Part shown: positions 22,807-31,687 of the stretch, piece by piece
How positions within the stretch are numbered: position 1 is the first letter of the stretch
Layout: each line of letters opens with the position of its first letter
Assembly (NCBI GenBank): GCA_945862215.1
Contig: CAMAXY010000010.1
Location: 1-61,772, forward strand
Direction of reading: 5' to 3'
Source: Singulisphaera sp. GP187
Lineage (GTDB): Bacteria; Planctomycetota; Phycisphaerae; Phycisphaerales; SM1A02
Length of the DNA: 61,772 bases
Translations under genes and position numbers: made by a program
The notes under the pieces: generated by a model
The model's input: the letters and a program-made list of their open reading frames with translations, nothing else
What the model was told of the DNA's origin: nothing
The model's database searches: none

Positions 22807-23115
22807 TCAAGCGCGACCGATGACGTCACCGCAACTGCGCTCGTATTGAATCTCGTGTGTCGCTGGAAAATGGCGAAGCCCTTCTTCCCGCAGTCGCGGG
22901 GCGTGATCTCGAACGTAGCGTTCAAAATCTGAGCGGCAAGCAAAAGAATATCTTGCTTCGCAGCGGATTAAAACACCGTCAATTTTAATGATTTCTGCAT
23001 TCTGCGCTCCCGCCTGCACGACCTGCGCTGCATGCTCGTCGCGCATCCAAGCCAACCACTTCACTGCGGTGGATGGGTCGGTAAATGTCAGGGTGACGGT
23101 GTATCGAAAAGACAT
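22807..23115 (-). CDS. DUF4286-like small protein
   Basis: A 102-residue cytosolic protein with a ferredoxin-like alpha/beta pattern (RYTVTLTFTDPSTAVKWLAW and later FERYVRDHAPRLREEGLRHF). It resembles DUF4286, whose function is not known to me. Its ATG overlaps the dsbD stop in ATGA form, so it is the second gene of a coupled pair. Its end abuts the convergent O-antigen-ligase gene by one base. Confidence 0.65.
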   Translation of the reverse strand: MSFRYTVTLTFTDPSTAVKWLAWMRDEHAAQVVQAGAQNAEIIKIDGVLIRCEARYSFACRSDFERYVRDHAPRLREEGLRHFPATHEIQYERSCGDVIGRA

Positions 23116-25085
23116 CAGTTGATTTTCGAAAGTGGCTTATTGATTTGGCTGGTCGCCTCGTTTATCGCATTCACAACTTCAGATGGGGTATAGGCGTCGC
23201 TTTTAAAAATCTCTTTGCCATCAGGATCGAGAATGACGAGCAGCGGAATCGTCACGCGGTCATACTGCTTCAGCAGCGTTCGTCCATCTATGTTGTTTCC
23301 AGTCAGATCGACTTTGACCGATTGAATTCCACCAGCTTTCAATCGAGCAAGCACGCTCGAACTTTCCAGCACAGTCTTTTCGAGTGTCTTGCAATTCAAA
23401 CACCACTCCGCTGTGAAATCGATCATGACTGCGTCCCCGCTCTTGAGAATCGTGTCCAGACGAGCGGGGGTATAGAACACCCATTTGATCATGCCATCGT
23501 GACTGAATTGAAAGCCGACGCTGACACTGATGGCGGCAATCGCAATTCCAAGAGAGCAGAAAATGCCTCGGAATTTCGCGCTTTTTGTCAGTTTCAGCGT
23601 GCGCCAGCACAACCAGAGTCCTGCGATGGTTCCCAGTGCTGAAACGATCCACCAATAATCATTGGTTGGAGGACTTGGCGGATCAACAAGAAATCCAGCG
23701 AGACCAGCTCCGACAAAATATGCCGCCGCCGCCAAGAGCAGCAATCCCATTGTTTGCTTGACAACATCACTCGGTGGTCCGCTCTTTGGTACGTGACTGA
23801 CGAGTTGAGGAAAAGCGCTGAGTATGAAATAGGGCAGCGCCATACCAAATCCAATTGAGCCGAAAACGATCAACACAATCAACGGATTTTGAGTCGTTGC
23901 CCATGCGGCAGCCGCACCCATCAGAGGCGCAGTGCATGGAGTCGAGAGCACCGCGGTCATTAAGCCGAATCCAATGGAGCCAACGAAAGTGTCGTGTCGG
24001 AAATCAATTCCTGCGATGGACTGCGGAAGTTGAATCGCGAAGAACCCGCACATTCCCACAGCCATCACGGCAATAATCAATCCAACAGTCACTGTGAAGA
24101 GTGGATATTGAAAGAGTTGGCTCGCACTCGTGAATCCGCTGAGAAGAGAGACAGCAAGTCCCAAGCAGATCCAGAAGACGACCACGCCAGTCGAGAGCGC
24201 TGCACCCAAAACTAAGCAGCGTCGGCGATTTCCGGCGATACGCGAAAGACCCATAATTTTCAGGGGAATCACAGGCAAAACACATGGTGTGAAGTTCAAC
24301 AAGAGTCCGCCAGTTGCAGCGATGATCAAGACGAGGAAAAAGCCACCCCCATTTGGATCGATAGAAAAATCCCAACCAAAGAAATTAAATTGGATGTTTG
24401 TAGATGGGGCAATTCCCGAATGAATCTGAGAAAATATTTCGGAATCGAACTGCGCAAACACTGCAGGTGGCGCTCCGCTCGCTGAACCAGCTTTGACCTC
24501 AACCTCCATCGAAACTTCGACAGTCGAAGGCGCAACGCAATTTGTCGCTGTACACGCCTGAAACTCCAACTTGAAAACAATCGTCTGCGGACCAAGCGAA
24601 GCATCTGGGGCGATGGAAAAGGGCACAAAGATGACAGCCTGTCCTTCAAAGACTGGATAAGTTTGAATGCCATCACCAACATCGGCTTTTACAGGATGAA
24701 ACTCAGGCCACTGTGCGCGAACATCTGTGAATGAATCGATTGGTTTGGTTGTCAACCATTCGGGTTTGCTCGCGCTTGCCGCACGGACAACCTTCCATGC
24801 GTTTGATGCCTGAATTGAAGTAAAGACGGCACCATCAAATGTGGCAATGCCTTTTGCAGCATCATCATTTCCAAGACGATCGTTCGTCCAAATATGCCAA
24901 CCAGGGCTGATTTCTAGCACGATTGCAACGGGGAGGTCAGCTCCTGCAGCGACAGTTTGCATCGCAGGAATCGCTTGAACCTTTACGACATCTGCAGAAT
25001 CCTTGGCCCCGCCCTGCGCCATCGCTGCGTTTCCCATGAAAATCGCTGTGATCAAAGTGAAAATTGCAAGCCGCATTTCAAGCAT
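23115..25085 (-). CDS. dsbD: Thiol:disulfide interchange protein DsbD
   Basis: Encodes about 656 residues; the start is ATG 25085 or 25076, either giving a signal peptide. It shuttles electrons from cytosolic thioredoxin across the inner membrane. The periplasmic alpha domain has the Cys pair CTATNC (about 178-183). The membrane beta domain has FTPCVLPVIPLK (about 265) and STPCTAPLMG (about 383). The C-terminal thioredoxin domain has WCLNCK (about 560-565). All six redox cysteines of the family are therefore present. It is divergent from nusA. Confidence 0.93.
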   Translation of the reverse strand: MLEMRLAIFTLITAIFMGNAAMAQGGAKDSADVVKVQAIPAMQTVAAGADLPVAIVLEISPGWHIWTNDRLGNDDAAKGIATFDGAVFTSIQASNAWKVVRAASASKPEWLTTKPIDSFTDVRAQWPEFHPVKADVGDGIQTYPVFEGQAVIFVPFSIAPDASLGPQTIVFKLEFQACTATNCVAPSTVEVSMEVEVKAGSASGAPPAVFAQFDSEIFSQIHSGIAPSTNIQFNFFGWDFSIDPNGGGFFLVLIIAATGGLLLNFTPCVLPVIPLKIMGLSRIAGNRRRCLVLGAALSTGVVVFWICLGLAVSLLSGFTSASQLFQYPLFTVTVGLIIAVMAVGMCGFFAIQLPQSIAGIDFRHDTFVGSIGFGLMTAVLSTPCTAPLMGAAAAWATTQNPLIVLIVFGSIGFGMALPYFILSAFPQLVSHVPKSGPPSDVVKQTMGLLLLAAAAYFVGAGLAGFLVDPPSPPTNDYWWIVSALGTIAGLWLCWRTLKLTKSAKFRGIFCSLGIAIAAISVSVGFQFSHDGMIKWVFYTPARLDTILKSGDAVMIDFTAEWCLNCKTLEKTVLESSSVLARLKAGGIQSVKVDLTGNNIDGRTLLKQYDRVTIPLLVILDPDGKEIFKSDAYTPSEVVNAINEATSQINKPLSKIN

Positions 25086-25121
25086 CCTATGAGCGAATCG
25101 GCTCTTGAATATGGGAGGGAC

Positions 25122-25150
25122 TTGAAAAATAGGCGTTGTCACGCTATAAT
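25122..25150 (+). promoter_or_regulatory. Sigma-70-type promoter of the nusA operon
   Basis: TTGAAA at 25122-25127 and a perfect TATAAT at 25145-25150 are separated by 17 bases. Transcription would start near 25157, giving a leader of about 298 nt before the nusA ATG at 25455. This is the clearest housekeeping promoter in the window. Confidence 0.85.
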
Positions 25151-25158
25151 AGCCCCTC

Positions 25159-25179
25159 CCGTGGAGATGGCCTCCACGG
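25159..25179 (+). promoter_or_regulatory. 5'-terminal hairpin of the nusA leader
   Basis: CCGTGGAG and CTCCACGG form a perfect 8-bp stem with a 5-nt loop, immediately after the predicted transcription start. No T-run follows, so it is not a terminator. It could protect or structure the 5' end of the leader RNA. Confidence 0.7.
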
Positions 25180-25208
25180 TTGCCCGTCCGTCCTTTGTCA
25201 GTCGCACT

Positions 25209-25289
25209 ATGAGAACGACCATGTCTACGAATTTCTTTCATCGTATTTTTTGGAATCGTGTCGAATCGGCAAACCGAAACCGCTTATGA
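25209..25289 (+). CDS. Possible 26-residue leader peptide upstream of nusA
   Basis: An ATG at 25209 opens a 26-codon frame ending in TGA at 25287-25289, inside the nusA leader. The peptide is basic and aromatic (FFHRIFWNR). I see no good ribosome-binding site, and there is no run of one regulatory amino acid as in classical attenuation. It is listed because the leader also contains a terminator/antiterminator pair. It may be chance. Confidence 0.25.
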   Translation: MRTTMSTNFFHRIFWNRVESANRNRL

Positions 25290-25361
25290 CGCATTTTGGC
25301 GTCCATCCGCGTTTTGTTTCGGCAAAGGCGATCGTTTGGTCGGAGACCCGAATGGGTTGAT

Positions 25362-25390
25362 TGACCAGCCGAGCGCAGTCGGACGGGTCA
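25362..25390 (+). promoter_or_regulatory. Candidate antiterminator hairpin in the nusA leader
   Basis: TGACC at 25362-25366 can pair with GGTCA at 25386-25390. Inside this, CCGA can pair with TCGG around a 6-nt loop. This structure would consume the left arm of the terminator that starts at 25386, so the two folds are mutually exclusive. Confidence 0.55.
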
Positions 25391-25422
25391 TGAACGCTAC
25401 CGCGGCGATCATGACCTTTTTT
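25386..25422 (+). terminator. Intrinsic terminator (attenuator) before nusA
   Basis: A perfect 8-bp stem GGTCATGA/TCATGACC encloses a 15-nt GC-rich loop and is followed directly by TTTTTT. It lies about 230 nt into the leader and 33 nt before the nusA start codon, so termination here would prevent expression of the whole operon unless antagonised. Confidence 0.8.
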
Positions 25423-25454
25423 ATTCGCGGTGACAATTCGAAAGGACCTCTCAA

Positions 25455-26789
25455 ATGAATGACATCATCCGACTGCTCGACTCCGTTGCCCGTGACCGAA
25501 ACATTGATCGTGAACTCTTGGTTCAAGACCTCGAACTCGCCATGGTGAGTGCCGCGAGGAAACATTTTAATTCTGAGGATCCAGACGAATTTGGTTGCGA
25601 GATCGACCGCCTTGCTGGTGGGATTTCGCTCTGGCGTAACAATGAAGATGAGACTCGTGAAGTGATTCCACTGGAGAGTTTGGGACGCATCCCAGCGCAA
25701 ACTTTCAAGCAGGTGATGATCCAAAGATTCCGAGAAAACGAGCGCATTTCCCTCCTTGATGAATTCTCGAAGCGTCAAGGCGAACTGGTCACAGGTGTGG
25801 CGCAGCGTTACGAAGGTAACGCATTGATCGTGCAATTGGAACGCACCGAAGGATTCATGCCCAAGAGTGAGCAGATTCCAGGCGAGCAATTTCAAGCAGG
25901 TGATCGAGTTCGTTGCATTCTTCTTGATGTCCGCGATGCAGGCAGTCAGGTTAAGATTGTGATGAGCCGTGCGCATCCCGATTTTATTCGTCGACTCTTT
26001 GAGTCCGAAGTTCCAGAAGTCGCAGAGCGAACGATCGAAATCAAGGCGATGTCGCGCGAACCTGGATTCCGCACGAAATTGGCGGTTTCGTCTGTTGATA
26101 CAAAGGTCGATGCTGTCGGTGCATGCGTCGGCGTGCGTGGTTCGCGCATTCGAAATATTGTTGACGAACTCGGCGGCGAGAAGATCGACATCGTTCGTTG
26201 GAATGAATCCAGCCAAGTGTTGATCGCCAACGCGCTCAAGCCTGCTGAAGTTGAAGAAGTCAGTTTGTGCTTCGAACTCGGACGAGCGACGATCATCGTT
26301 CGCGATGATCAGTTGTCGCTGGCAATCGGCCGTCGTGGACAAAACGTGCGACTTGCTGCGCGTTTGACTGGTTGGGACGTCGATATTTTGACTCCGCCTG
26401 AATTGGAAAAGGGATTGCAAACCTTGCAGGCTGCGGTGAAATCAGTTGAAGGCGCAACGGATGAAATGCTTGATCGCATGGGCGCTCTTGGCATGATCAG
26501 CGTTTTCGATGTTGAAGAAATCGGCGAGACAAGTTTGGTTTCGGATTGCGGCATGACGGAAGAGTTGGCGACCAAGGTTGTCGATGCTTGTTCTGATCGT
26601 GCCAAAGTCGTCGCAGAAGAAATGCAGAACGAACGGACTGCAGCTGAACTGAAGCAGGCTGAAGAGGGCGCAGTGGTTGACGCATTGCTCGGCGGCGGTT
26701 CAGACATGCCTGTTTCAACGGATCAGCGCAGCGAAGCAGCCGCAGACAACATCCTTGGATTCGGTTCATCGGAGCCCACCAAATCGTGA
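25455..26789 (+). CDS. nusA: Transcription termination/antitermination factor NusA
   Basis: A 444-residue RNA polymerase-associated factor. The N-terminal polymerase-binding domain (DIIRLLDSVARDRNIDREL) is followed by an S1 domain and the KH1/KH2 region (VGACVGVRGSRIRNIVDELGGEKIDIV, then LAIGRRGQNVRLAARLTGW). A C-terminal acidic/Ala-rich helical part follows. AAAGGA precedes the ATG at 25455. rimP, the usual first gene of this operon, is absent here. In E. coli NusA regulates its own operon, so the leader terminator just upstream is a natural target. Confidence 0.96.
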   Translation: MNDIIRLLDSVARDRNIDRELLVQDLELAMVSAARKHFNSEDPDEFGCEIDRLAGGISLWRNNEDETREVIPLESLGRIPAQTFKQVMIQRFRENERISLLDEFSKRQGELVTGVAQRYEGNALIVQLERTEGFMPKSEQIPGEQFQAGDRVRCILLDVRDAGSQVKIVMSRAHPDFIRRLFESEVPEVAERTIEIKAMSREPGFRTKLAVSSVDTKVDAVGACVGVRGSRIRNIVDELGGEKIDIVRWNESSQVLIANALKPAEVEEVSLCFELGRATIIVRDDQLSLAIGRRGQNVRLAARLTGWDVDILTPPELEKGLQTLQAAVKSVEGATDEMLDRMGALGMISVFDVEEIGETSLVSDCGMTEELATKVVDACSDRAKVVAEEMQNERTAAELKQAEEGAVVDALLGGGSDMPVSTDQRSEAAADNILGFGSSEPTKS

Positions 26790-26870: not shown

Positions 26871-29681
26871 GTGGCAACTAAGACCGTCAAGAAGATCCGA
26901 ATCACGCAGGTCGCCAAAGATCTCGGTATCCCCACAAAGGACATCATCGAGAAATGCATAAGCGAAGGCATTGAAGGTGTAACGTCGCCACAAGCATCGA
27001 TCCCAATTGGATTGGCTGAGACAATCAAGGAATGGTTCGGAGGATCAGGTTCCACGACTGGAGCGGAGATCGCAGCCAGTGTTGATGTTGTTGGAATTCG
27101 TGAGCGTGTCCAGAAGGCTGCACCGAAGAAAAAGAAAGTGGCGGGGGATGCGCCGCCATCTGATGAACCAATATCGGTCACGGAAACTTCTGTTGCCGCG
27201 ACTGCAAGCGCTGTCACTATTGAAGAGCCAATTGCTTCGATTGATATTGCAGCAAAGCAGCCGTCTGTGATGGTTTCATCTGCGGCGGCTTCATCTGTGA
27301 ACGCGAAGGATCAATCGAGCGATGGAATTGATGGAGGAACTTCAGTTGTTGACGCTCCCGTCGCGCCACCAAAGCCGGTTGTTCCTGTTCTGCCGCCCAA
27401 GCCTGTTGTTGTTGTTCCACCGCCGAAACCATTTGTGCCTGCACCGATGAATGTTCCCACGCGTCCAGTTCGGGCGCGTCCGACATCTCAAGTGCTCGAT
27501 CAACCCACGAAAACAAGCCTTTCTGGACCGAAAGTCATTCGAGTCGAAGCTGCCGACAACATCGCCGCGCCTCGCCCTCGAATGGGCGGTCAATTCGGTA
27601 CGAATCGTCCTCCGATGGGTCGTACTGGTGGTCCAAGTATTGGCACTGGCGCAGGCGCTGGCGCAGGTGATCCCGCGAATCGTCGAGGTGCATTGCCTCC
27701 ATCGAAGCGCCGTCCATCGGATGCGGGTCGAACTGGTCGAGCAGATCCAGCACGTGATGGTTCGCGTTCAAACAAAGATATTGAAGAGCGTGCAAGTCGA
27801 ATTGGCCAAGCAGATGGTTTCTTTCGCAAGCACCGAACTTCCACACGGCCTTCGCATTCTCCGCAAGGTCGAGCGGTTGTAGCCAAGCCACAAGGTCCAG
27901 TCCATGTTCCCAATCCAGTTTCGGTGAAGGAACTTTCTGAGCTGACTGGTGTGAAGATGTCGGAGCTCATGAAGAAATCTCTGCTTGCCGGAAATCCAAT
28001 CACAATCAATACAGCGCTTGATGGAGATCAATCGATGGAATTGATGATGGCATTCAATATTGAAATTGAAATCGACGAAGCAAAGACCGCATCGGATGAA
28101 ATCGAAGAACGATTCGCAGCGCGAACCAGAGTGGATGAACGTTCGCGTCCAGCCGTTGTCACGATTCTCGGGCATGTCGATCACGGCAAGACGACTCTTC
28201 TTGATCGAATCCGCAGCACAAATGTTGCAGCAGGCGAAGCGGGTGGAATCACCCAATCTACTCGGGCATTTCAGGTTGAAGTCAAGGCTGGCGATCAGCC
28301 ACGCATGATCACATTTATCGACACGCCAGGTCACGAAGCCTTCACAGCAATGCGTGCGCGCGGTGCGAAAGTGACAGACATCGTCATCTTGGTCATTGAT
28401 GCTGTTGACGGGCTGATGCCACAAACCATCGAGAGCATCAATCACATTAAAGCGGCGAAAGTTTCCGTGATTGTCGCTCTCAACAAGATTGATCGTCCAG
28501 AATTCGACGAGAAGAATCTGCAACGCATTTATGGCGAGCTCGCCAAGAATGATTTGAATCCCGTTCCATGGGGAGGTTCAGTCGAAATCGCTCTTGTCAG
28601 TGGACTCAAGGGCACTGGACTTCCAGAACTTTTAGAAACGATTGCGCTGCAAGCAGACGTGTTGGACTTGAAGGCGGATTGGGGAGGTCACGCTCAAGGA
28701 AGTGTGCTGGAAGCGCGCATGGAAGAAGGCCGTGGCCCCGTCGCACAATTGCTCGTGCAAGAAGGTTGTCTCAAGCGAGGCGATTTCGTAGTGGTCGGAC
28801 GAGCCTTTGGTCGAGTCCGCGACATCGTGAGCGATCGCAATGAGCGCATCACTACCGCGGAACCGACTGCAGCTGTAGCAATTTCTGGCATCGACATGCT
28901 TCCAGATGCTGGCGATAAGTTCTATGTTGTTGAGAGTCTCGCAGCGGCCGAACAGGCTGCGATTGAGCGACGCGCATTCGAGCGAGATCGAGAACTTTCT
29001 GCTCCAAAGGTGACGCTGGACAATATTTTCGAGACGATGGCGAAATCGAAGAAGAAGGAATTGCCATTGATCGTCAAAGGCGATGTGCAAGGATCCGTGG
29101 AGACGCTCAAAGTCGTTCTTGGCCGCATCAAAGCAGAAGATGTCAGCATTTCTATTAAGCATGCAGGCGTCGGCGGAATCAACGAAAGTGATGTCGAACT
29201 CGCTGCAACGACTGGCGCAGTCATCGTGGGCTTCAATGTGACAAGCAACGCAAAGTCGCGGCAACTGGCTGAAGTGCGCAAGATTGATATTCGACTTTAC
29301 GAAGTGATTTATCAGTTGACAGATGACATGGACAAAGCTGTTCGCGGACTCTTGGAACCAGAGATCAAGTTGCAGGTTCTTGGACATGCAGATGTTCGTG
29401 CAGTCTTCAAGATCACGAAGGTCGGCGCAATCGCAGGTTGTTATGTCACCGACGGAGTCATCGAGCGAAATGCCCAGATCCGCGTGACGCGCGATGGAAT
29501 CGTGGTCGAAAAAGATCGCCGTCTCGAGCAACTCAAGCGATTCAAAGAAGATGCGAAAGAAGTTCGCTCTGGAAACGAATGCGGCATGAAGATCAATGGG
29601 TATGACGACATCCGCGAGGGCGACGTGTTGGAGTGCTATCGCACGATCACGGTTCGGCCGCTAGGTGGCGGAAATGCGTGA
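26871..29681 (+). CDS. infB: Translation initiation factor IF-2
   Basis: A 936-residue initiation factor GTPase that starts at GTG 26871 behind GGAG. The IF2N module is at residues 1-55. A long low-complexity Pro/Val/Ala/Gly/Arg linker (about 80-345) and a second IF2N-like segment (VSVKELSELTGVKMSELMKK) follow. The G domain has G1 GHVDHGKT (434-441), DTPGHE and NKID. Domains II-IV close the protein. The switch-I segment reads GGITQSTRAFQV where most IF-2 proteins have GGITQHIGA. The catalytic His in DTPGHE is kept. Confidence 0.96.
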   Translation: MATKTVKKIRITQVAKDLGIPTKDIIEKCISEGIEGVTSPQASIPIGLAETIKEWFGGSGSTTGAEIAASVDVVGIRERVQKAAPKKKKVAGDAPPSDEPISVTETSVAATASAVTIEEPIASIDIAAKQPSVMVSSAAASSVNAKDQSSDGIDGGTSVVDAPVAPPKPVVPVLPPKPVVVVPPPKPFVPAPMNVPTRPVRARPTSQVLDQPTKTSLSGPKVIRVEAADNIAAPRPRMGGQFGTNRPPMGRTGGPSIGTGAGAGAGDPANRRGALPPSKRRPSDAGRTGRADPARDGSRSNKDIEERASRIGQADGFFRKHRTSTRPSHSPQGRAVVAKPQGPVHVPNPVSVKELSELTGVKMSELMKKSLLAGNPITINTALDGDQSMELMMAFNIEIEIDEAKTASDEIEERFAARTRVDERSRPAVVTILGHVDHGKTTLLDRIRSTNVAAGEAGGITQSTRAFQVEVKAGDQPRMITFIDTPGHEAFTAMRARGAKVTDIVILVIDAVDGLMPQTIESINHIKAAKVSVIVALNKIDRPEFDEKNLQRIYGELAKNDLNPVPWGGSVEIALVSGLKGTGLPELLETIALQADVLDLKADWGGHAQGSVLEARMEEGRGPVAQLLVQEGCLKRGDFVVVGRAFGRVRDIVSDRNERITTAEPTAAVAISGIDMLPDAGDKFYVVESLAAAEQAAIERRAFERDRELSAPKVTLDNIFETMAKSKKKELPLIVKGDVQGSVETLKVVLGRIKAEDVSISIKHAGVGGINESDVELAATTGAVIVGFNVTSNAKSRQLAEVRKIDIRLYEVIYQLTDDMDKAVRGLLEPEIKLQVLGHADVRAVFKITKVGAIAGCYVTDGVIERNAQIRVTRDGIVVEKDRRLEQLKRFKEDAKEVRSGNECGMKINGYDDIREGDVLECYRTITVRPLGGGNA

Positions 29682-30063
29682 GCGTCGAGGAAAAGGACCG
29701 AAACTTCCATCGGGAGTTTCGTTCAGTTCGGATGGAACTGCGCGGCATGAAGCGCCAAGTTCGCGTCCAGCTCAGGTCGCAAGCGTTTTGCAGCGCGCGC
29801 TCCAAGATCGAATCGTACGAGGACTCTCCGACCCTCGCTTGCAGGGAATGGTTTCCATTCAAGAAGTTCGTCTCAGTCCAGATTTATTGGCAGCTCGGAT
29901 CAAGGTCTCGGTCCTTCCCGCAGATCGAGGTCCGCTCTCGCTCGCTGCTTTGCGAAGTGCGATCGGTTTTTTTAGATCTTCGCTGCGCGAAACCACCAGT
30001 CTGCGGCGCGTGCCGCAATTGATATTCGAATTGATTCCACCAACTGAAGAGGCTCTCCCATGA
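29674..30063 (+). CDS. rbfA: Ribosome-binding factor A
   Basis: About 129 residues from ATG 29674, behind AGGTGG; a GTG at 29665 is an alternative. The KH-like core is recognisable in RPAQVASVLQRALQDRIVRG, in LSDPRLQGMVSIQEVRLSPDL and in the C-terminal VPQLIFELIPP. It matures the 30S subunit 16S rRNA. It overlaps the infB stop by 8 bases, and its own stop overlaps the next start (ATGA), so three genes are translationally linked. Confidence 0.9.
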   Translation: MRERRGKGPKLPSGVSFSSDGTARHEAPSSRPAQVASVLQRALQDRIVRGLSDPRLQGMVSIQEVRLSPDLLAARIKVSVLPADRGPLSLAALRSAIGFFRSSLRETTSLRRVPQLIFELIPPTEEALP

Positions 30064-30881
30064 CAGAGAAGAAACCGGCGTTCAACATCAATCGTCTGAA
30101 TTCATTGATTAAGAAGTACAGCGCTCGTGCGCGTACCGAAGAACCAAATGTCGCAGATTTGACGGCTTTACTGATTCATTCATCTCTCTTGTATGACGCA
30201 ACCACCGAGATGGCCGATACGGCGATGCAGCGCGTGCGAAGTCGCAATGTTGACTTCAACGAGTTTCGAGTCAACTTGGTTGAAGAGATGGTGACGACGA
30301 TTGGGCTGAAATATCCAGATGGCTTCGGGCGTATGCGCAGATTGCGGATGACATTGTTTGACCTCTTCCGTCGACATCACCGAGTCAGTTTGGAACAACT
30401 TGTCGGTAAGCCAAAAAAAGACGTTCGGATTTATCTTGAGAATCTTGAGGGAATGCGAACCTATGCAGTTTCCCGCATGATGTTGCTTGGATTCGATGTC
30501 GCCCTCGTGCCGATCGACCAGACAACAGTTGATATGTTGGTGCATTATGAAGTGCTTCCAGAAGATATGAAGCCCAGTTCGCTGACAGAACTTTTTGCAA
30601 AGAAATTTAAGAGCGATCGTGCACGGCAGATGCATTTCGCACTCGTTGCCGCAGCGGATGCGTTTCATACTTCAGGTCGTGCTGAAGAGGCTCGCATCAA
30701 ACGCGAAGCAACGAAGAAGCCACGCGGTGCAGCGGCAACATCCGCCGAACATGCCAAAACGCATCCCAAGCCCGTGGCAAAGCCGAGTGCAAAGACCAGT
30801 ACTAAGACCAGTGCTAAAACCATTACAAAGCCGAAGGTAAAAGCAAAGCCAAAGGCGAAAGCCACGGCTCGATCCCGTTAA
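30060..30881 (+). CDS. Degenerate endonuclease III-like HhH protein with Lys/Ala-rich histone-like tail
   Basis: A 273-residue protein. Residues ~30-200 are helical. The segment LENLEGMRTYAVSRMMLLGF followed by VPIDQTTVDMLV (125-160) lines up with the helix-hairpin-helix and V-D-T-H region of endonuclease III. The catalytic Lys position is occupied by Tyr (MRTY), the Asp is retained (D153), and the C-terminal [4Fe-4S] cysteines are absent. Residues ~218-273 form a basic KP/AK/TK-repeat tail like histone H1 or bacterial Hc1-type proteins. It sits between rbfA and yebC, coupled to rbfA by ATGA. It may be a non-catalytic nucleic-acid-binding protein; this is inference. Confidence 0.65.
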   Translation: MTEKKPAFNINRLNSLIKKYSARARTEEPNVADLTALLIHSSLLYDATTEMADTAMQRVRSRNVDFNEFRVNLVEEMVTTIGLKYPDGFGRMRRLRMTLFDLFRRHHRVSLEQLVGKPKKDVRIYLENLEGMRTYAVSRMMLLGFDVALVPIDQTTVDMLVHYEVLPEDMKPSSLTELFAKKFKSDRARQMHFALVAAADAFHTSGRAEEARIKREATKKPRGAAATSAEHAKTHPKPVAKPSAKTSTKTSAKTITKPKVKAKPKAKATARSR

Positions 30882-30961: not shown

Positions 30962-31687
30962 ATGGCTGGTCATAGCGCATGGAAAAATATGAAACACCGC
31001 AAAGCTGCGGTGGACAAGAAGCGCGGGAAGATGTGGTCCAAAGCATCTCGTGCGATCATCGTTGCTGCGAGACTTGGCGGGGGAGATGTCCGATTCAATT
31101 CTTCGCTGCGCATGGCTATTGATGAAGCCAAGAGCGTCAACATGCCTCGCGAGACAATCGAAAAGGCAGTCAAGAAGGGGTCGGGTGAAATTGATGGTGA
31201 GAATTTTCAGGCGATTCGATATGAGGGATATGGCGCAGGAGGGGTTGCCATCATCGCTGAATGTTTGACATCCAATGTCAATCGCACTGCTCCTGACATC
31301 CGAATGATCTTTGACAAGAACGGCGGAAATCTTGGTGTTCTTGGTTCGGTTTCTTACAACCTACATCATGCAGGAGTGTTGGTCATCGAGCGCACACGCA
31401 TCGAAGAAGATCGTTTAATGGAGATCGTTCTGGAGGCTGGAGCGGACGATGTTTCTGCCGAAGAAGAAATGTGGCAAATCACGTGTGCGCCTGCTGCTCT
31501 TGCGGCCATTCGTGACGCTCTCGAAGCTGCACAAATGCCAGCTGCGGAAGCGCAGATTATGTGGATACCCTCCACAACAGTCGAAGTTGAAGGCGAACAC
31601 TCGGCGCAGATTGTTCGTTTGATCGATGCCCTTGAAGAGCACGATGATGTGCAGAAAGTTTTTTCAAATGCAATTTTTATCGATTAA
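30962..31687 (+). CDS. yebC: YebC/PmpR-family protein
   Basis: A 241-residue member of the TACO1/YebC family. The N-terminus MAGHSAWKNMKHRKAAVDKK is the family signature. RETIEKAVKKGSGE and YEGYGAGGVAIIAECLTSN follow, and then the conserved C-terminal domains. Family members act as transcriptional regulators (PmpR) or help ribosomes translate difficult sequences such as proline stretches. Its location after infB and rbfA fits a translation role. Confidence 0.94.
   Translation: MAGHSAWKNMKHRKAAVDKKRGKMWSKASRAIIVAARLGGGDVRFNSSLRMAIDEAKSVNMPRETIEKAVKKGSGEIDGENFQAIRYEGYGAGGVAIIAECLTSNVNRTAPDIRMIFDKNGGNLGVLGSVSYNLHHAGVLVIERTRIEEDRLMEIVLEAGADDVSAEEEMWQITCAPAALAAIRDALEAAQMPAAEAQIMWIPSTTVEVEGEHSAQIVRLIDALEEHDDVQKVFSNAIFID

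Follow-up and report, generated by a model that had tools for sequence, protein, structure and literature searches.

A putative transcription attenuator with an ultra-short reading frame in the nusA operon leader of Phycisphaerae

Comparison of related leaders makes it reasonably probable that the leader upstream of nusA in the window (the whole stretch of DNA that was analyzed, 61,772 nt) acts as a transcription attenuator of nusA-infB-rbfA, with a decision coupled to translation of the leader itself. Three elements of this reading are supported by comparison, namely a terminator hairpin, a long-range helix (P1) that would compete with it, and a two-codon minigene; two tandem frames upstream of the minigene, ORF1 and ORF2, are supported less strongly. 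From these elements we infer that termination takes place, that the frames are translated, in what way ribosomes would act on P1, which signal is read and in which direction the operon responds. Judged by its conservation the finding is real, and the apparent retention of an ultra-short frame in two orders of the class is its surprising part. The short reading frames are the most unusual part of the leader, and they were absent from the first-pass annotation of this DNA.

The window belongs to a draft genome of 2.79 Mb that is 93% complete. The operon runs in the order nusA, infB, rbfA, a frame without a name, and yebC. On the plus strand, nusA (25455-26789; TIGR01953, 335.7 bits), infB, encoding IF-2 (26871-29681; TIGR00487, 658.5 bits), and yebC (30962-31687; NF001030, 318.7 bits) all scored over their cut-offs, while rbfA (29665-30063; TIGR00082) passed narrowly, with 53.1 bits against a cut-off of 51.15. 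A probable Shine-Dalgarno (SD) sequence for nusA, AAGGA, lies at 25442-25446 (plus strand). The gap between rbfA and yebC holds a 273-aa frame (30060-30881) with no NCBIfam match. Divergent from the operon, the minus strand carries a DsbD-like gene with a thioredoxin-like end (23115-25082), and its top matches, TsoB and DsbD, both fell far under the curated cut-offs. rimP (PF02576) was not found in the window's genome (0 of 1 genome, 93% complete), while the same search detected it in 10 of 14 control genomes. No tRNA or tmRNA was found in the window. A known Rfam RNA was ruled out as the identity of the leader, with no match at gathering score over the whole window and none at E up to 10 over 25050-25500.

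The leaders compared came from 130 of the 166 family genomes with nusA, from 44 of 80 order loci, and from four further loci. All were located through NusA, and the counts given here cover nusA leaders only. Representatives were taken as one per genus within the family, and order loci were each counted singly. A second order, that of genome G259, which by kinship falls in the same class as the window, contributed leaders from 30 of 39 genomes with nusA, and the outside-class sample comprised 25 leaders.

Transcription of the leader probably starts from the promoter noted in the first-pass annotation, TTGAAA (25122-25127) and TATAAT (25145-25150) separated by 17 nt on the plus strand. That call was borne out, with 11 of 12 consensus matches and the top score among promoter-like sites within 22-32 kb. 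Since the number of such sites in that interval was at shuffle level (6 observed vs 5.8 in shuffles), the promoter call rests on the quality and the place of the site. Other leaders of the genus show a similar -10 box by eye. The leader downstream is real, as had been suggested, and is conserved; its length is about 270 nt rather than the earlier estimate of about 300 nt. Its predicted fold beats 200 of 200 dinucleotide shuffles (z -3.6), and for the 3′ part alone 198 of 200 shuffles are beaten. Near the 5′ end, hairpin H0 (25159-25179, plus strand; CCGTGGAG / CTCCACGG) had 86.9% of cells paired, with both-side changes at 4 of 8 pairs.

The leader ends in an intrinsic terminator-like hairpin with six T residues (25386-25422, plus strand), in which GGTCATGA (25386-25393) pairs with TCATGACC (25409-25416) around an inner CGC/GCG, and the T-run occupies 25417-25422. 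The first-pass annotation had described an 8-bp GC-rich hairpin with six T, 33 nt before nusA; hairpin and T-run are present, while the arms are 50% GC and not GC-rich, and the spacing to nusA is 32 nt. The hairpin was missing from the output of a terminator consensus scan, for which its 15-nt loop is the probable reason. Covariation upheld it: across 16 genus leaders 98.9% of cells were paired, and 3 of 11 pairs had changed on both sides. A permissive search found a hairpin of the terminator kind in 171 of 174 leaders, 147 of them over a score that we set. The stem reads GGTC...GACC in the window and, by eye, approximately GGGyCAyG...CrUGrCCC in many relatives; the U-tracts of many other genera look broken or weak by eye.

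The terminator loop (ACCGCG, 25399-25404, plus strand) can pair with CGCGGT at 25426-25431, 3′ of the U-tract, a pairing that can form only after read-through. It was present in 100% of cells in the 16 genus leaders, with 5 of 6 pairs invariant and one showing both-side changes. Taken jointly, terminator and loop pairing had a covariation score above 500 of 500 shuffles; their count of both-side pairs was matched by 22 of 500 shuffles, and their 9 pair types were not above shuffles (462 of 500). Over 59 representatives the loop pairing scored 15.75 vs 14.68 with partners swapped, a modest effect that none of 40 swaps equaled, and it is retained despite tens of inserted nucleotides between the strands in L041-L043. 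The downstream partner lies in a motif, CGCGGYGACA, beyond the U-tract.

Directly upstream of the terminator domain stands the two-codon minigene (25342-25360, plus strand), with an SD sequence GGAG at 25342-25345, ATG at 25352-25354, GGT at 25355-25357 and TGA at 25358-25360 (GGAG-N6-ATG-GGT-TGA). It is enclosed by hairpin H2 (25338-25366, plus strand), with 87.3% of cells paired and both-side changes at 4 of 4 pairs in the outer helix, and 88.8% and 1 of 5 in the inner one. NTG-NNN-TGA occurs at this site in 18 of 18 genus leaders, one of them with CTG. More widely, an SD-led two-codon unit was found in 134 of 178 leaders, and in 74 of 91 representatives vs 4.8 in dinucleotide shuffles, where 91 overstates the number of independent cases (at least L164 and L202 come from genera that were already represented, and L233/L234 and L239/L240 are pairs of close sequences). 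The remaining 17 representatives are without a two-codon unit as defined. Units of 1, 3, 4, 5, 6, 7 and 8 codons were found in 7, 9, 2, 4, 1, 4 and 4 of the 91, near the shuffle values of 5.1, 4.5, 4.2, 5.0, 4.8, 4.5 and 3.9, respectively. Under a stricter SD definition the two-codon unit was present in 61 of 90 vs 2.7. It precedes the terminator, mostly by 30-100 nt, in a search that covered 12-100 nt.

The stops were TGA (59), TAG (13) and TAA (7), the starts ATG (49), GTG (19) and TTG (11), and the second codons were of 29 kinds, the commonest being ACC (20 of 79 sites). With three stops, three starts and 29 second codons in use, an ultra-short translation unit appears to be kept rather than a sequence, and the variation of the second codon makes a single amino acid unlikely as the signal. 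Recoding at the minigene stop was not adopted as an explanation, given that all three stop codons occur. By eye, genus g55 of the window's family apparently has TTG-TAA or TTG-TAG after GGAG, and g18 is mostly without a start. The order relative L210 has two copies of the module GGAGCGCGCC-ATG-ACC-TGA, which lie some 403 and 322 nt from the 3′ limit of its extracted leader. Second-order leaders have a unit that takes the form of AUG-stop or of 2, 3 or 4 codons, found in 26 of 30 leaders, vs 7.6 in shuffles, with a highest value of 14 among 50 shuffles. Leaders of other classes, serving as a control, had a unit of 1-4 codons in 7 of 25, vs 3.2 (highest shuffle 8), so the contrast with them is not absolute; among these 25, one-codon units numbered 4 vs 0.9 and three-codon units 3 vs 0.9. 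Across both strands of the whole genome, GGAG-N5-9-ATG-NNN-TGA, a pattern restricted to an ATG start and a TGA stop, has 21 matches (3 for the reversed control), which makes chance an unlikely reason for its place in the nusA leader. The 20 other matches lie in stretches open in some frame on either strand, for at least 150 codons in 19 cases and for 71 codons in one.

Two longer frames precede the minigene on the plus strand. ORF1 (25221-25289) has 22 codons, an alternative in-frame ATG at 25209 and a TGA at 25287-25289, and ORF2 (25286-25360) has 24 codons and the same stop as the minigene. The UGA of ORF1 overlaps the AUG of ORF2 (AUGA) within hairpin H1 (25286-25306, plus strand; AUGACGC...GCGUCCAU, of the form AUGACGC-N6-GCGUC(C)AU), whose outer pairs join 25281-25283 to 25309-25311. 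Within the genus, H1 had 97.5% of cells paired, with 7 of 10 pairs invariant and one showing both-side changes. In 18 of 18 genus leaders (two cut by contig ends) a frame that starts with ATG runs to the AUGA overlap, and while the length of ORF1 varies among them, both frames are retained. ATGA overlaps have been tied to translational coupling (PMC6728339). The idea that H1 directs selenocysteine insertion at the UGA was not adopted, as other families also have TAA or TAG as the ORF1 stop in or near the overlap.

Many leaders from other families of the order carry a nine-codon frame as their ORF1 (e.g., MQTAGNHGR, MRTTGIHAR and MLKVRNHAR), with a CAUG that holds an AUG overlapping the end of the frame; frames of exactly nine codons after a strict SD sequence occurred in 17 of 90 representatives vs 2.2 in shuffles. 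Many second-order leaders have a frame of 10-13 codons, such as MKKVGIFSRA and MTVKGTISRAVA. A recurrent pattern, M...G..(S/N)(R/S)(A/V), is seen in ORF1 of that order (e.g., in L274-L294; MKKVGIFSRA, MIYTGLNSRE, MVQIGKVSRAFA), and is possibly a conserved leader peptide. For ORF2, 73 of 77 representatives had the minigene's frame open for at least 20 codons upstream, vs 58 and 54 with the two remaining frames; for at least 25 codons the numbers were 63, 56 and 49. Of 34 hairpin-anchored leaders, 23 had an AUG frame that runs from H1 to its stop in the minigene, vs 13 and 8 when the two remaining frames were followed, counts that include several leaders misassigned by the automatic choice of H1. 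By eye, ORF1 and ORF2 peptides differ between leaders, and no run of regulatory codons was seen.

The helix that we propose as antiterminator, P1, joins the 5′ end of the leader (25182-25190) to nucleotides that cover the first positions of the terminator's left arm (25380-25388, plus strand), with a core of CCCGTCCG (25183-25190) and CGGACGGG (25380-25387). Within the genus 99.1% of cells were paired, with one-sided variation and zero both-side changes. Order-wide its sequence varies greatly while pairing is kept, as in GCCCGTCCG/CGGACGGGT, GTCTGTAGTG/CACTACAGGC and GTTCGCGACA/TGTCGCGGAC. Across 59 representatives with a terminator score of at least 12 (others were dropped), the mean helix score was 20.25, vs 17.27 with partners swapped between genera, and 0 of 40 swaps were as high; 31 of the 59 scored at least 20, vs 12.2 when swapped. 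All but one of these 31 helices include 3-4 nt of the terminator left arm, in a search that permitted an overlap of at most four arm nucleotides. Terminator and competing helix thus have nucleotides in common, and in folding predictions for 8 of 8 species the lowest three terminator pairs had probabilities of 0.47-0.74 with P1 free and 0.94-1.00 with 25181-25221 masked. Conservation and predicted folding together point to an antiterminator layout. An attenuator before nusA-infB-rbfA, as the first-pass annotation proposed, is supported by conservation of the terminator and of a competing helix; the supported competitor uses the leader's 5′ end.

The competitor originally proposed was local, with TGACC pairing to GGTCA and CCGA to TCGG. 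That complementarity is present in the window's genome, and over 16 leaders it was paired in 77.3% of cells, higher than any of 500 shuffles (mean 74.0; 0 of 500 as high) and than its best slid version (53.1). Its covariation, however, stayed within the controls (score equaled by 58 of 500 shuffles, count of both-side pairs by 64 of 500), and its predicted probability was 0.00 for all eight species in each of seven folding conditions. Part of TGACC, 25363-25366, is the 3′ arm of H2, opposite 25338-25341, and both-side changes were seen at all four of these pairs. We reject the local pairing as the main competitor and regard it as barely credible as an account of the leader; P1 is the better-supported competitor.

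Other readings dispense with a competing helix or place the control elsewhere. In one of them the leader terminator simply depends on NusA, as it does in Bacillus subtilis, so that NusA sets its own level with no antiterminator, and the short frames only recruit or park ribosomes. This seems unlikely here: a B. subtilis study cites NusA-stimulated termination in the nusA leader as autoregulation (PMC12288461), terminators of the rimP-leader type that lack a visible antiterminator are described as widespread (PMC2965389), and by eye short hairpins with a T-run precede nusA in many of the compared leaders from other planctomycete classes, but P1 overlaps the terminator base and covaries order-wide, and the conservation of the minigene would be left unexplained. 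Alternatively, minigene and ORFs may act after transcription, with ribosome occupancy protecting or translationally coupling the leader mRNA, and the terminator being separate. Effects of this kind have been described for two-codon minigenes and proposed for those of axe-txe and LEE (PMC8708949), but the minigene here sits ahead of the terminator rather than beside the nusA start, and we consider this reading rather improbable. Even less probable, at long odds, is that the terminated leader, of about 265 nt, is a trans-acting small RNA with a role of its own; it has its own promoter, a conserved structure and a terminator, as such an RNA would, but the short frames point to cis control, Rfam gave no match, and the leaders were fetched solely through NusA.

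Under the attenuator reading that we favor, the terminator hairpin would stop transcription early, and formation of P1 with nucleotides before and at the terminator base would cost the hairpin its lowest pairs and favor read-through. Between the two strands of P1, ribosomes would read ORF1, restart on ORF2 via the AUGA, and initiate on the minigene near the switch. With almost no elongation, the minigene could serve as a readout of ribosome initiation, termination and recycling; because ribosomes may start there and must stop at once, we propose that the leader reports one of these steps and thereby influences the choice between P1 and the terminator. When initiation is good, ribosomes would stay on the leader and P1 would be disfavored, leading to termination, perhaps aided by NusA, while poor initiation would let P1 form and the operon be expressed. 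A feedback loop is proposed because the operon encodes IF2, RbfA and NusA.

The coupling of ribosomes to P1 is the weakest link, as folding with footprints is only suggestive and, where the minigene is concerned, mostly negative. When the energy model was given a footprint over the minigene's start, H2 was lost and P1 stayed at 0.68-0.90 in 8 of 8 species, and one on the minigene stop freed the terminator in only 1 of 8 (L034). At the ORF1 start (25209), a footprint covering -15 to +12 lowered P1 only in L034, from 0.72 to 0.57. The balance shifted only once the footprint extended to -20 or further; with 20 nt upstream covered, P1 fell to 0.12-0.49 and the terminator base rose to 0.60-0.93. 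Extension of the mechanism to the whole class is more tentative still. There, an ultra-short frame (start, 0-3 further codons, stop) might sense translation initiation and termination, with little elongation and no particular amino acid, and feed back on IF2, RbfA and NusA via a terminator/antiterminator switch. The matching of supply to demand for IF2 and NusA is understood in few models. If the reading is true, a minigene of constrained length, retained before nusA in two orders, would offer the cell a natural way to gauge initiation and recycling, and two-codon ORFs, usually held to be curiosities, could persist under selection over long times.

Among the matches listed (titles and abstract starts), no paper dealt with a minigene in the leader of nusA or infB, or with a Phycisphaerae attenuator. 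The general attenuator layout is not new, since nusA-leader terminators have been reported (PMC12288461; PMC2965389). Naville and Gautheret (2010; PMC2965389) describe the rimP-nusA-infB leader terminator as the attenuator of transcription with the widest occurrence, and in the excerpted text of that paper no larger conserved element is reported for the general form of rimP-leader. The leader described here shares with rimP-leader its place at the nusA-infB operon and a terminator-like hairpin; against the GGGc...gCCC stem of rimP-leader, the window has GGTC...GACC, and many relatives have, by eye, a GGG left arm and a CCC right arm. It differs from rimP-leader, as excerpted, in having P1, tandem short frames and the minigene, together with no detected rimP and no Rfam match. 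In B. subtilis, NusA represses itself by stimulating leader termination (PMC12288461). Similarly, judging from sequence, a nusA-leader terminator would gate entry into the operon here. Mondal et al. in 2016 reportedly found that no antiterminator is used in the B. subtilis nusA leader, unlike the leader here with its conserved competing helix and reading frames.

Two-codon minigenes regulate axe-txe and further genes, and are described in leaders of toxin-antitoxin systems, of ycbK and of LEE (PMC8708949); the present minigene resembles that of axe-txe in its SD sequence, start codon, single sense codon and stop. Unlike the known minigenes, as far as the excerpted account describes them, it is retained in two orders at a single housekeeping operon, where a putative terminator follows it. 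Another two-codon minigene is bar of phage lambda. Ribosome-mediated attenuators of the trp type combine a short leader ORF, competing structures and a terminator. The present leader likewise has a short ORF, and a putative terminator and competing helix with common nucleotides. Its minigene codon varies, and no regulatory-codon run was seen by eye. On present comparison it would be a variant of the known nusA leader attenuator, marked by the ultra-short reading frame.
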